A DNA stretch of 64,000 bases from Halorientalis persicus (GTDB taxonomy: Archaea; Halobacteriota; Halobacteria; Halobacteriales; Haloarculaceae), in NCBI RefSeq assembly GCF_900110215.1, contig NZ_FOCX01000016.1, positions 1-64,000 of the forward strand, given 5' to 3'. Under the pieces are notes generated by a model that saw only the letters and a program-made list of their open reading frames with translations, made no database searches and had not been told where the DNA came from. Positions within the stretch are counted from its first letter, which is position 1; every line of letters starts with the position of its first letter. The position numbers and the translations under genes were made by a program. Positions 20,076-58,186 of this stretch are shown in pieces.

Positions 20076-20149
20076 GGGTTCGTGGTCTAGTCGGTTATGA
20101 CGCGGCCTTTACAAGGCCGAGGTCGGTGGTTCGAATCCGCCCGAACCCA
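20076..20149 (+). tRNA. tRNA-Val (anticodon TAC)
   Basis: A full cloverleaf: acceptor stem gggttcg with cgaaccc, anticodon stem cggcc/ggccg around the loop tttacaa (TAC, Val), T-arm ggtgg-ttcgaat-ccgcc and discriminator A. The CCA end is not encoded. Its last 24-25 bases recur downstream as near-identical copies, marking this gene as an integration target. Confidence 0.95.
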
Positions 20150-20235
20150 CTGCCTCGCGGCGCGAAAAAATCGTGAGCGCCGCGAAAAGCGTTCGTCGGA
20201 TTCGCGGCCCAGAGGACGAGCGGAGCGAAGTCCTC

Positions 20236-20260
20236 GTGGTTCGAATCCGCCCGAACCCAC
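20236..20260 (+). repeat. Exact copy of tRNA-Val 3' end (att-like)
   Basis: Twenty-five bases identical to 20126-20150, that is the T-arm, acceptor 3' strand and discriminator of tRNA-Val, displaced by exactly 110 bp. Such a copy is what site-specific integration into a tRNA gene leaves behind. It is followed by a hairpin built on ttgctg/cagcaa with gtgagc on the 3' side. Confidence 0.85.
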
Positions 20261-20302
20261 TTGTTGCTGTGAACGAACCGTGAGCAGCAGCAAGGTGTGA
20301 GG

Positions 20303-20326
20303 GCGGTTCGAACCCTGCCAGTCGCG
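20303..20326 (+). repeat. Degenerate T-arm-like segment
   Basis: gcggttcgaaccctgccagtcgc keeps the T-loop core ggttcgaa but not the rest of the tRNA-Val end. A gtgagc motif lies about 11 bases further on, as after the other copies, so I read it as a decayed or heterologous member of the array. Confidence 0.4.
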
Positions 20327-20354
20327 CACAACGGATGTGAGCACGTCTGTCTCC

Positions 20355-20377
20355 GGTTCGAATCCGCCCGAATCCAC
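20355..20377 (+). repeat. Near-exact copy of tRNA-Val 3' end (att-like)
   Basis: Twenty-two of 23 bases match the tRNA-Val 3' end (one C to T change in the acceptor strand). The hairpin after it (about 20382-20412) is nearly the same as the hairpin after the intact tRNA (about 20154-20185), both gcggcgcg ... gtgagcgccgcg, so tRNA end plus hairpin was duplicated as a unit. Confidence 0.8.
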
Positions 20378-20467
20378 TGTTACGCGGCGCGCACAACTCG
20401 TGAGCGCCGCGGAAAGCGTTGATTTTGCCGGCGATATTGTTTACTATACTGAAACGAACCTACCGAT

Positions 20468-21873: not shown

Positions 21874-22112
21874 TTCCACTTTTCACTCCCTTGGGTGCGC
21901 TACGCGCACCACTCGGTCGCAAAAAACGTGGGGAAAAACTACCGGACGCTCCCTGCGGTCGCGTCCGGGGAAATCGTGACTCGATCCGCTCGTCGCGGTA
22001 TGCTTGTACACCGGGGAGACAGAACACGCGTATCCGCCGAACTTGACACGGGTTTTACACGTGGTAACTGTCGTTAGATTCATATAACAGCTCGAAAGAA
22101 CGGTTACATACG
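21874..22112. other. Hairpin-containing spacer after tRNA-Phe
   Basis: No gene. It contains two perfect hairpins: ggtgcgc/gcgcacc (21894-21910) and ccggacgc/gcgtccgg with an 11-nt loop (21942-21968). Fourteen bases of the second (21947-21960) recur exactly at 56341-56354. The end holds the promoter of the DUF4234 gene. Confidence 0.5.
22080..22088 (+). promoter_or_regulatory. TATA box for the DUF4234 gene
   Basis: tcatataac about 25-33 nt before the ATG at 22113 predicts a leaderless mRNA. Confidence 0.55.
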
Positions 22113-24930: not shown

Positions 24931-26151
24931 TTGAAACTCGTGGCAGACGACTACCTGAGACGCACCGCAATCACCCGTCCCATCCTCACCGACGAGCAAC
25001 AGGACCTGCTCGACGCCACCATCAGCGAGTGGAAAGATGCCTGTAACATCAGTAGCCGCATCGGATGGGATGCAGGTGAGACGCGGAAAACCGACCTCCA
25101 AGACCTCGCCTACGACACGGTGTTGGAGGAGACACGTCTCGGGAGTCAGCACGCAATTCTCGCCACCCATCAGGCCGCAGCCGCACTCGATGGAGTCGAC
25201 GCAATCGAAGACCTTGATGAACACTACAAAACGTCCCGACCGGAGTTCACCAGTAACACGGTGAAATACGACACACGGACGATGACGCTGTTCGATGACG
25301 GGTCTGTGTCGCTTTCCACCGTCGAGGGTCGAATTCGGTGTGGCCTGAATCTCCCCGACGAAGACGACGGGCATCAACAGGAATACCTCACCGATGACGA
25401 GTGGGAAGTAACAGAGTCTACGCTGTCAAAGCGTAATGGCGATTACTACCTCCACCTCGGGTTTCGCAAAGATAAACCTGAGAAACAGGTCGAAATACAG
25501 GATGACGACGAGGACAGGACAGTTCTCGGCGTTGACCTCGGCATCGTCAACATCGCCACCACCAGTACAGCCTACTTCGCCTCCGGCAGAGAACTTCGAC
25601 ACCAGCATCGAGAGTTCGAGCGGATTCGCGGCAATCTCCAGCAGACTGGTACACAATCCGCCCATCGGACAATTCAGCAGATGAGCGGGAGGGAATCACG
25701 GTATCTTCGTGACCAACTCCATCAAGTTGCGAACCAGATTCTCGAAGAAGCACGTACTCACGACTGCGAGTACATCGCGTTCGAGAATCTGAAACACATC
25801 AGGGAGCGTGCGCCGCCCGTCAAAGAGTTCCACCAGTGGGCGCACCGCCAGCTCGTTGATCTCGTGGAGTACAAAGCGGAAGCCGAGGGGATTAGCGTCG
25901 AGTTTGTAGACCCGAAGAACACGAGTCGGCGGTGTCCCGAATGTGGTCACACGAGCGAGGGGAATCGCGTCAGGCAGGCGGAGTTCGAGTGTGAGTCGTG
26001 CGGTGCAACTCAGAATGCAGATTACGTGGGTGCGAAGAATGTTGGGTGGCGGTACGTCCGTCGCGGCCTACAGTCGTCGCGGCGGACGGGCGACAGTCAA
26101 CTCGCCCTAAAGTCAGGAACGGTGACGTCCTCAGGTTTCGTAGAAACCTGA
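24931..26151 (+). CDS. tnpB: TnpB RNA-guided endonuclease (IS1341 type)
   Basis: A 406-aa TnpB with TTG start. RuvC residues are all present: D202 (G-V-D-L-G), E285 (A-F-E-N-L) and D364 (N-A-D-Y-V-G-A-K-N), and the zinc ribbon has C335-x2-C338 and C354-x2-C357. TnpB, the ancestor of Cas12, uses a guide RNA made from the element's right end to cut DNA next to a transposon-associated motif, which favours retention of the element. No frameshift is seen, so the nuclease should be active. The C-terminal coding end overlaps the guide-RNA scaffold. Confidence 0.93.
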   Translation: MKLVADDYLRRTAITRPILTDEQQDLLDATISEWKDACNISSRIGWDAGETRKTDLQDLAYDTVLEETRLGSQHAILATHQAAAALDGVDAIEDLDEHYKTSRPEFTSNTVKYDTRTMTLFDDGSVSLSTVEGRIRCGLNLPDEDDGHQQEYLTDDEWEVTESTLSKRNGDYYLHLGFRKDKPEKQVEIQDDDEDRTVLGVDLGIVNIATTSTAYFASGRELRHQHREFERIRGNLQQTGTQSAHRTIQQMSGRESRYLRDQLHQVANQILEEARTHDCEYIAFENLKHIRERAPPVKEFHQWAHRQLVDLVEYKAEAEGISVEFVDPKNTSRRCPECGHTSEGNRVRQAEFECESCGATQNADYVGAKNVGWRYVRRGLQSSRRTGDSQLALKSGTVTSSGFVET

Positions 26152-56016: not shown

Positions 56017-56428
56017 ACTGGGGTGTCTTCACAGGAGTACCCACCCGCGACATATAATTCTTGTATCTCCCTCGACGCCGGAACGTCATCGTCTGTCACA
56101 CCTTCGTGACACCCGCGACGGGCGGCCCGGCGGCGGTGTCGCCGTTCGCTCGGCTGTTTGCGGACTCCCGCTGGTCGTCCTCACTACGCTCGGCCGCCCG
56201 CTACTCACGGCTCGCTTCGCTCTCACGGGCGTTGCCCGTTCGAGCAGCGGTCAGAGACCGCTCGCAATTCCGGAGATTCTTCGCTCCGCTCGAATCTCCC
56301 TGCTCGCGGCTCCATGCGTCGCCGCTCGCTCGTTCGGCGACGCTCCCTGCGGTCCCGTCGCCCGCTGCTCACGGGCGCTTCGCGCCCGTTCGCTCGCTCG
56401 GCGCTCCTCACTCCGTTCGGAGCGCCCG
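56017..56428. repeat. Hairpin-array spacer
   Basis: A 412-bp stretch without a gene contains six perfect hairpins in a row: acgggc/gcccgt (56226-56240), gcggtc/gaccgc (56247-56261), ggagatt/aatctcc (56272-56299), gcgtcgccg/cggcgacgc (56316-56343), acgggcgc/gcgcccgt (56371-56389) and ggcgctcc/ggagcgcc (56400-56426). The 14-mer cgctccctgcggtc at 56341-56354 is also found at 21947-21960. The last hairpin follows the stop of the 218-aa gene directly and may terminate it. One long open frame crosses the area but encodes Ser/Arg/Leu filler. Confidence 0.6.
56400..56426 (-). terminator. Perfect hairpin after the 218-aa gene
   Basis: Stem ggcgctcc/ggagcgcc with an 11-nt loop begins 2 nt beyond the stop (minus strand). 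No T-run follows, so the role as terminator is tentative. Confidence 0.35.
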
Positions 56429-57085
56429 CTACTCGTCCACCGGCGTCCGCCGCAACTCGTCGATCTGGTCGCGCAGCGCCCCCAATTCCGACTCCAGTTC
56501 CTCGCGCCGGTCGATCAGTGCGCTCAACTCCTCCGTGTTGACCGGCTGGTCGCTCTCCAGGGCCACGTCCAGCGCGTCCGTCGTCGACCGCACCAGAAAG
56601 TGCGCGATCTGGAGAATCTCCTCGGGTGATTCCCGGCCCTCGTACAGCTCCACTTCGCCCGACAGGGGCGTGTACTCGACCAGTGGCACCTCCTCCTCGC
56701 CCTGGTAGGTCGTCGCCGTACTCAGACTCGTCACCGGGTTGTGCCGCTCTTTGGTCTGTTCCGAGCGGACGATGCTGAACTCGTCGGCCAGATTCCCGTA
56801 GGTCTCTTTCAGATCCCGGAGCTTCTGACCCGTCTCGACGTCCATCTGGGCCTCCACGTCCGCGAAGAACTGCGCCGACCCCCCGAGACTCAACGCGACC
56901 GCGAAGAAGGCTCCCTGGGAGTGCTCGGCGAACTCGCGCAACCGCTCGCGGACCGTCCCGTGTCGCCCCTCGGCCGCCAGCTTCTGCAGATCGTCGAGAA
57001 ACGCGCGCGTCCCCGCTTCCTGCTGGAGGTAGTCCTCGACCAGCGCCTTCGGCATCTCCCGAGGCGCGTCGTCTCGGCTGTTCAT
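56429..57085 (-). CDS. Hypothetical helical protein with C-terminal coiled coil
   Basis: A 218-aa acidic protein, start M-N-S-R-D-D-A-P. Residues 10-100 look helical; residues 175-210 form a strong coiled coil (S-A-L-I-D-R-R-E-E-L-E-S-E-L). It contains no known motif. Codon use is of core type. No operon partner is evident; the nuclease gene upstream is 100 nt away. It probably oligomerises. Function unknown. Confidence 0.66.
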   Translation of the reverse strand: MNSRDDAPREMPKALVEDYLQQEAGTRAFLDDLQKLAAEGRHGTVRERLREFAEHSQGAFFAVALSLGGSAQFFADVEAQMDVETGQKLRDLKETYGNLADEFSIVRSEQTKERHNPVTSLSTATTYQGEEEVPLVEYTPLSGEVELYEGRESPEEILQIAHFLVRSTTDALDVALESDQPVNTEELSALIDRREELESELGALRDQIDELRRTPVDE

Positions 57086-57599: not shown

Positions 57600-57823
57600 C
57601 CGGTAGCGGTTGCTTCGGTCTCTGGTTTCAATCCTCGTACCCGAAGCTGGCTCACGAGCCCCGCCGTCGAAACGTATGTCCGGAGCGAGAGTACGCAGTC
57701 TCCCCCGTGTACGCCGACCGACGGAGTCGGTCGGAACTTGAACCACAGTCGCAGCAAAACCGCTCTCTGGTTCAGATCCGCTTGGCATATCTGTGACTCA
57801 CGGATTCGTTCGTCGCAAAAGTA
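57600..57823. other. Spacer between nuclease gene and tRNA-Asp
   Basis: No gene. The minus strand has two segments resembling the tRNA-Asp 3' end: tgtggttcaagttcc around 57730-57745 and tcgctccgga around 57679-57690, both imperfect. The hairpin ccgaccgac/gtcggtcgg (57715-57733) is also present. These may be decayed attachment-site copies or chance. Confidence 0.35.
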
Positions 57824-57896
57824 CGCCCGGAGCGGGATTTGAACCCGCGTCACGACCGTGACAGGGTCGTATGATGGGCCACTACACCATCCGGGC
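57824..57896 (-). tRNA. tRNA-Asp (anticodon GTC)
   Basis: On the minus strand: acceptor gcccgga/tccgggc, anticodon loop ctgtcac (GTC, Asp), T-arm gcggg-ttcaaat-cccgc, discriminator G as expected for tRNA-Asp. No CCA encoded. Confidence 0.95.
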
Positions 57897-58186
57897 GAAC
57901 GCATTTCATCGTATCCGGGTTGCAGTATTAAGGCTTTCCAATGCGACCGGCGTCGTCACCCGTTCCCACGACCCATCCTCGGGGGAGATCGTGTGAAAAA
58001 CTCACAATAACCCAAACTCCTATGTGCGCAGTTCTCGTACTGACGGGTGAACACGCCTGTTCTGTCCCCGGCGACGGGGGTCGCATAGCGCCGCTCGGCG
58101 GGTTTTGACAAGTCTTAAATGGGCCCCACCGCAAGGACGCTGTAGTATCTCGTGACAGCAACCTTCTCCAGCCAGCCAGGCCACAC
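57897..58186. promoter_or_regulatory. Promoter and leader region of the RNA polymerase operon
   Basis: A 290-bp spacer. The TATA-like box tcttaaat (58113-58120) lies about 67 nt before the rpoH ATG, so the operon mRNA has a leader of roughly 40 nt, unlike the leaderless genes nearby. No hairpin or riboswitch is apparent. Upstream parts hold nothing I can identify. Confidence 0.5.

Follow-up and report, generated by a model that had tools for sequence, protein, structure and literature searches.

Arrays of hairpins and tRNA 3'-end copies behind haloarchaeal tRNA genes: a widespread, constantly reshuffled repeat system resembling Escherichia coli RtT

A tRNA-Val gene of the haloarchaeon Halorientalis persicus is followed by a short array in which hairpins alternate with direct and inverted copies of the end of that same tRNA. 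The array lies in a 64 kb stretch of DNA (hereafter the window) and is one of about 20 such tRNA-tail arrays in the genome. Arrays of this kind stand on nearly half of the tRNA genes in the three haloarchaea examined and are found almost throughout the class. They are a widespread, constantly reshuffled repeat system, and they resemble the little-understood RtT of E. coli.

The tRNA-Val(TAC) array

Two complete units follow the tRNA-Val(TAC) gene, and a last hairpin, A3, closes the array. Read from 5' to 3', a unit consists of a hairpin A, an inverted copy of the T-arm ('anti'), a hairpin B and tRNA bases approximately 53-73 repeated in direct orientation (T copy). The features are listed below.

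20076-20150, + strand: tRNA-Val(TAC), identified by ARAGORN and Rfam RF00005; the copies are templated by its bases ~52-73 (20128-20149)
20155-20185, + strand: hairpin A1 of the GTGAGC class, from folding; 88% like A3
20191-20204, + strand: anti 1, inverted copy of the tRNA T-arm and acceptor, GTTCGtCGGATTCG; pairs with T copy 1
20206-20237, + strand: hairpin B1, tip GACGAGC-GGA-GCGA (GNA triloop, tandem G.A); unit matched by model R1 at 20193-20255
20238-20259, + strand: T copy 1, identical to the tRNA-Val 3' end
20262-20292, + strand: hairpin A2, TGTTGCTG..GTGAG..CAGCAGCA; fold z -4.7
20301-20314, + strand: anti 2, inverted copy GGGCGGTTCGAACC; pairs with T copy 2 (20355-20376)
20315-20354, + strand: hairpin B2, CCAGTCGCGCACAACGGATGTGAGCACGTCTG cassette; unit matched by model R1 at 20300-20372
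20355-20376, + strand: T copy 2, copy of the tRNA-Val 3' end with one mismatch
20383-20411, + strand: hairpin A3, end of the array; fold z -3.2
57732-57822, - strand: a unit of this kind, decayed, behind tRNA-Asp(GTC) (57823-57897), read in the sequence as a hairpin A, GGATCTGAACC and GGTTCAAGTTCC

The initial annotation of this locus had recognized the exact copy of the tRNA-Val 3' end at 20236, and segments 20126-20151 and 20236-20261 are indeed identical (26/26), with a further direct repeat at 20353-20378 (88%). It was also right about the near-exact copy at 20355, which has one mismatch over 20355-20376, about the similar hairpin behind the tRNA and behind the last copy (20128-20193 and 20355-20420 are 88% alike over 66 nt, hairpin included) and about the gtgagc hairpins, which correspond to A1, A2 and A3. 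What had been taken for a degenerate T-arm at 20303 is the inverted copy anti 2, which pairs with the direct copy downstream. The second inverted copy (20191-20204) and the whole hairpin class B, lying between inverted and direct copies, had been missed. Tandem expansion of a tRNA end plus hairpin, one of the two explanations then offered, comes close to the present finding, but in addition the hairpins of the unit fall into two classes and the tRNA end is also present as an inverted copy. The label 'terminator' does not hold for these hairpins, since no T-run follows them. False protein calls on the minus strand had been predicted as well, in line with two minus-strand ORFs over the array (20087-20377 and 20109-20396) that match no Pfam family.

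The 22-nt end of tRNA-Val has no other match in the whole 64 kb at four or fewer mismatches. A tRNA pseudogene was rejected as an identity for the copies: they begin at base ~52-53, the 5' half is absent and ARAGORN finds one tRNA here. RNA folding gives z-scores of -3.4 and -3.1 for the two anti/B/T units and of -2.1, -4.7 and -3.2 for hairpins A1, A2 and A3; folded as DNA, both anti/B/T units likewise beat shuffled sequences (z -2.2 and -3.2). The B2 cassette class recurs at many tRNA loci in many haloarchaea.

Occurrence in haloarchaeal genomes

The arrays occur genome-wide and across the Halobacteria, in a strict position and orientation 3' of tRNA genes, and their copies are specific for the adjacent tRNA. 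In our survey, the last 22 nt of each fetched tRNA gene were searched for in the 650 nt downstream and upstream of it, with up to four mismatches allowed. Copies of the gene's own 3' end were found downstream of 19 of the 46 tRNA genes in the window's genome (30 copies; one upstream), of 20 of 42 in a congener (G006; none upstream) and of 20 of 44 in a member of another family (G054; none upstream). The ends of other tRNAs appeared in the same downstream regions in 4 of 1538 and 7 of 1204 tests. None of 56 tRNAs from other archaea of the phylum was followed by copies (0/56; Fisher 5e-12). Fidelity is high, with 38 of the 82 copies exact and 18 differing by one mismatch. The gaps from copy to copy cluster at 74-114 nt (74-134 nt for nearly all units), and the order of the modules is fixed.

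A covariance model of the unit had matches in 18 of 19 haloarchaeal genomes (4-38 each) and in none of 101 other genomes of the phylum. In genome G000, the matches with E < 0.01 lie directly 3' of tRNA genes and on the same strand, except for opposite-strand palindrome echoes and one match within a tRNA cluster; a single seeming orphan stands behind a tRNA-Pro. Nine isoacceptors carry arrays in all three surveyed genomes, and the sets of array-bearing tRNAs overlap between genomes slightly above chance (12 versus 8.1 expected).

A contig of G000 (C22:16970-21014; L082) holds about 25-28 tRNA genes within 4 kb, none of them with a tail array. It is probably a plasmid or virus tRNA cluster.

Structure of the units

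The inverted and direct copies form a covarying stem. The inverted copy is located near the middle of the gap in each unit and varies together with base 57 of its direct partner (TTCAAA with TTTGAA, 25 versus 3; TTCGAA with TTCGAA, 12 versus 3). Odd T-loops are mirrored too: TTCAATT is accompanied by AATTGAA in Gly(CCC), and TTCAACT by AGTTGAA in Lys(TTT). When 11 units were aligned, 88% of the cells were paired and 10 of the 23 pairs had changed on both sides, as against 77.9% and 6.7 in shuffles. Over 75 units, the mean z-score of the anti/B/T part is -3.9.

The tip of hairpin B is a GNA triloop surrounded by tandem G.A (GA-RC-GNA-GY-GA), a motif seen 41 times downstream and twice upstream of tRNAs; of the 61 triloops in this context, 41 are GNA. 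GNA loops on G-C pairs are known as extraordinarily stable DNA mini-hairpins (PMC4686876). These tips lie mostly on the sense strand of the tRNA (41 versus 10), which suggests selection on a single strand or on RNA. G-U pairs are equally rare on both strands (5.5/6.2% and 5.0/5.4%, + versus - strand) and therefore give no RNA-specific signal. A kink-turn was rejected by eye, as the tandem G.A motif has no 3-nt bulge.

Dense GA/GNA hairpins (GCGCTCCGAACGGAGTGAGGAGCGC and others) also stand behind a protein gene on the minus strand of the window (56110-56430), so the motif is not exclusive to tRNAs. The tip motif of hairpin B is part of a larger family of hairpins in haloarchaeal intergenic DNA. 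At three loci (L010, L022 and L031), some T copies are split between the T-stem and the acceptor part, after GCC, and the insert is a hairpin in opposite orientation (..CGAGCCCTCGTTCGCTTCGCTCGC..GGAC).

Shared cassettes and local tRNA copies

The B cassettes are common to many tRNA genes. Fifty-eight pairs of them are at least 80% alike in the three genomes, 52 of these between different tRNAs, as in Arg(CCT) and Lys(TTT) (97%), and one B type is present at eight different tRNA loci of G000. A 30-base core of hairpin B, free of tRNA sequence, was searched for in approximately 85,000 genomes and gave 68 matches, essentially all haloarchaeal. Sixty-three have enough flanking sequence for analysis; in 60 of these a tRNA of the same orientation lies 49-335 nt upstream, and the remaining three also adjoin tRNA-like or T-copy sequence. 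The tRNAs concerned represent at least 18 isoacceptors in many genera; among them is tRNA-Lys(TTT), with units in Haloferax denitrificans, H. sulfurifontis and H. massiliensis. An own-tRNA end copy (up to five mismatches) follows the core in 54 cases, compared with 76 of 1320 random positions in the same loci. The core is conserved letter for letter in many genera. It is absent from the 2.9 million viral contigs of IMG/VR, and a viral origin was rejected on that account.

Where orthologous tRNAs differ between genomes, the copy carries the base of its own host's tRNA at 181 of 192 sites. Because the B core is found at many tRNAs, usually with the end of that tRNA, the cassettes are shared between loci and the tRNA copies are local. 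Hairpin B thus moves between non-homologous tRNA genes or stays alike at them, and the T copy and its inverted counterpart belong to the locus.

One contig labelled Bacteroidetes bacterium QS_9_68_14 (PXTT01000074.1; L329) carries an apparently haloarchaeal tRNA-Val with a tail unit, and is probably misbinned.

Turnover between relatives

Closely related species differ by swaps, gains and losses of cassettes. Behind tRNA-Ser(CGA), Haloferax elongans has the order A1-Ba-A2-Bb-A1 and H. larsenii A2-Ba-A1-Bb, the same four cassettes combined differently. In two Natronococcus strains, the B cassettes (95%) and the downstream flanks (89%) at tRNA-Glu are alike and the A cassettes are unrelated (53%). 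At tRNA-Gln, Haloarcula amylolytica exceeds H. japonica by one unit, and the B of this extra unit is composed of the left half of one neighbour and the right half of the other, joined at the hairpin tip. The arrays of two Natrialba species are nearly identical. At tRNA-Val, the number of units in congeners of the window ranges from zero to several; the array is absent in G005 and G007, and in G005 the tRNA is directly followed by unrelated genes, with no second copy found in about 19 kb downstream. No rearrangement was seen inside a single species. The arrays look like DNA that is dispensable and recombines, and that persists genome-wide.

Conservation of the array at base level across genera, which the initial annotation had said would speak for a functional RNA instead of scars, is not what we observe: the plan is kept across families, and sequence, unit number and tRNA set vary.

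Comparison with known systems

The nearest known counterpart is the RtT RNA of E. coli (the tyrT repeats, Rfam RF00391), a counterpart by plan and not RtT by score. In both systems the units follow a tRNA gene in tandem, and each of them closes with a copy of the 3' end of the tRNA in question. In E. coli K-12, the same survey found the tRNA-Tyr end repeated three times behind tyrT, each time as an exact 19-nt copy and at a spacing of 178 nt. Each tyrT repeat (tyrT/tyrV; L382) also holds an inverted copy, GGGGAAGGAT, and it is this copy that closes the outer stem in the RtT structure of Rfam. The two features that define this stem, a 3' arm copied from the 3' end of the preceding tRNA and a 5' arm complementary to that copy and enclosing further hairpins, are both present in the haloarchaeal units. 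The number of RtT units also varies between E. coli strains: the median is 3 and the maximum 10, and in 734 of 5426 genomes no unit was found. RtT is reported to modulate the stringent response as an RNA that is set free from the tyrT transcript (PMC4986893).

RtT is bacterial, the arrays are archaeal, and no sequence similarity was detected between them. The RtT covariance model (gathering cut-off 45 bits) has no match in the window or in the haloarchaeal array loci; its best score in 20 haloarchaea is 23 bits, below the cut-off, compared with 133-138 bits for the E. coli tyrT locus. Unlike RtT, the arrays concern about 45% of the tRNA genes, have units of 74-134 nt and two hairpin classes, and carry cassettes common to different tRNAs. 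The E. coli plan of a tRNA 3' end and its inverted copy around hairpins thus has a sequence-unrelated counterpart in Archaea, and a shared cause, mutational or functional, may make such a plan arise repeatedly.

Other short repeats are less similar. The hairpin repeats of mitochondria (double-hairpin elements, RHE and GC clusters) are also short, GC-rich, intergenic and often tandem, with no known enzyme or function (PMC2800124), but they have no tie to tRNA 3' ends and no direct or inverted copies of neighbouring gene ends. The MITEs, PATEs and small mobile repeats of Haloquadratum are likewise short non-coding haloarchaeal repeats, the PATEs with palindromes near their ends (PMC3119063), but they are not described at tRNA ends. 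The attachment scars of haloarchaeal proviruses resemble the arrays in that the intact tRNA gene is followed by a partial copy of its 3' end; they have a 43-nt repeat with kilobases of cargo in between (PMC3119063), whereas the arrays have no cargo. Archaeal att sites usually measure 40-50 bp (PMC8371274), against approximately 21-26 nt for the array copies. A search of open-access literature and of Rfam 15 found no published description of the arrays.

Origin of the arrays

As the best explanation, with a chance of being correct that we place a little short of even, we propose that the arrays are made of hairpin cassettes and that recombination and template switching at tRNA T-arms have added, exchanged and removed them. 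From the evidence above we infer that they are non-essential repeats maintained at the DNA level. Recombination or template switching would exchange the cassettes at the two T-arm motifs, direct and inverted, approximately 10 nt long and common to nearly all tRNAs, and also at the shared tip of the hairpins. Template switching is an established route by which inverted repeats are perfected; template-switch repair would keep the inverted and direct copies complementary, and recombination among the copies would keep them equal to the functional tRNA end. Selection would act on the functional tRNA alone, protecting its end, and no dedicated enzyme would be needed.

Several observations count against such DNA turnover. 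The letter-level conservation of the B core exceeds what is expected of a neutral by-product, the GNA/GA tips prefer the sense strand, and the array sets overlap slightly above chance between genomes. Rearrangements within one species were not observed, and T-arm motifs of about 10 nt are short for homologous recombination.

The strongest rival to DNA turnover is a functional RNA, which we regard as possible, if somewhat unlikely. The units would be co-transcribed with the tRNA and cut into RtT-like structured RNAs, mimics of the tRNA tail, with tRNA processing, RNase Z, the CCA enzyme or a stress response as their target, and selection would keep both structure and sequence. E. coli RtT has the same plan, with its outer stem closed by the copy of the tRNA-Tyr 3' end, and its reported release as an RNA affecting the stringent response (PMC4986893) argues in this direction, as do the good folding (75 units, B part mean z -3.9), the covariation and the sense-strand GA/GNA tips. 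G-U pairs, however, show no strand asymmetry, no Rfam family fits, and any given tRNA may be without an array in close relatives, as is tRNA-Val in G005 and G007.

Alternatively, the hairpins may be a mobile element moved in trans and targeted to the T-arm, by a tyrosine recombinase, an IS605-like HUH transposase or another enzyme, with the tRNA 3' end rebuilt at each insertion. The presence of the same B cassettes at 18 or more isoacceptors in many genera, the strict site and orientation, the start of the copies at the T-loop (a region used by integrases) and the likeness of the hairpins to those of single-stranded DNA transposition would all fit. We nevertheless consider this unlikely: the inverted and direct copies are local and not part of a travelling cassette, there is no linked enzyme gene, the B core is absent from viral contigs, and no pair of empty and filled sites with a transposition signature was seen.

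A dedicated haloarchaeal cassette exchange seems quite unlikely. Here one enzyme would insert, swap and excise hairpins with the T-arm, direct and inverted, as its recombination site, and every step would re-create the tRNA 3' end, in loose analogy to integrons, which use folded attC sites. Integron attC itself was rejected by eye, the T-arm being a misfit to the core boxes GTTRRRY/RYYYAAC.

That the copies are decoy attachment sites, selected for drawing integrating elements off the tRNA gene, is a slim prospect. They do hold the region from T-loop to 3' end, the attB of many integrases, but they are shorter than known archaeal att sites, no insertion at a copy rather than at the tRNA was seen, and the hairpins and inverted copies would be left unexplained.

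Scars of repeated virus or plasmid integration and excision, the other explanation of the initial annotation, are strongly disfavoured and scarcely credible, even though tRNA 3' ends are common att sites and a haloarchaeal island ends in a 43-nt repeat of one (PMC3119063): unit length and module order are fixed, about 20 tRNA loci per genome (~45% of the tRNA genes) are involved, inverted copies are present, neither integrase nor cargo lies between the copies, and the B core is missing from viral contigs. Copies of tRNA 3' ends should thus not automatically be read as provirus scars. The arrays constitute a natural system for the study of concerted evolution and template switching at tRNA genes, in the tractable genus Haloferax.

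Other features of the window

An ORF at 24931-26151 of the window resembles an IS605-type OrfB/TnpB, as judged from its translation only.

A second type of tRNA 3' flank is present at 21874-21970 of the window and also behind Arg(CCG), Arg(CCT) and Ser(GGA) in G000. One pattern search for a second tRNA-flanking repeat gave no matches. The flank reads CCAC(C/T)TTTTT...GGGTG..CACC...CGCAAAAA(C)GTGG followed by GGGAAAAAC, and looks like another repeat family with terminal complementarity.
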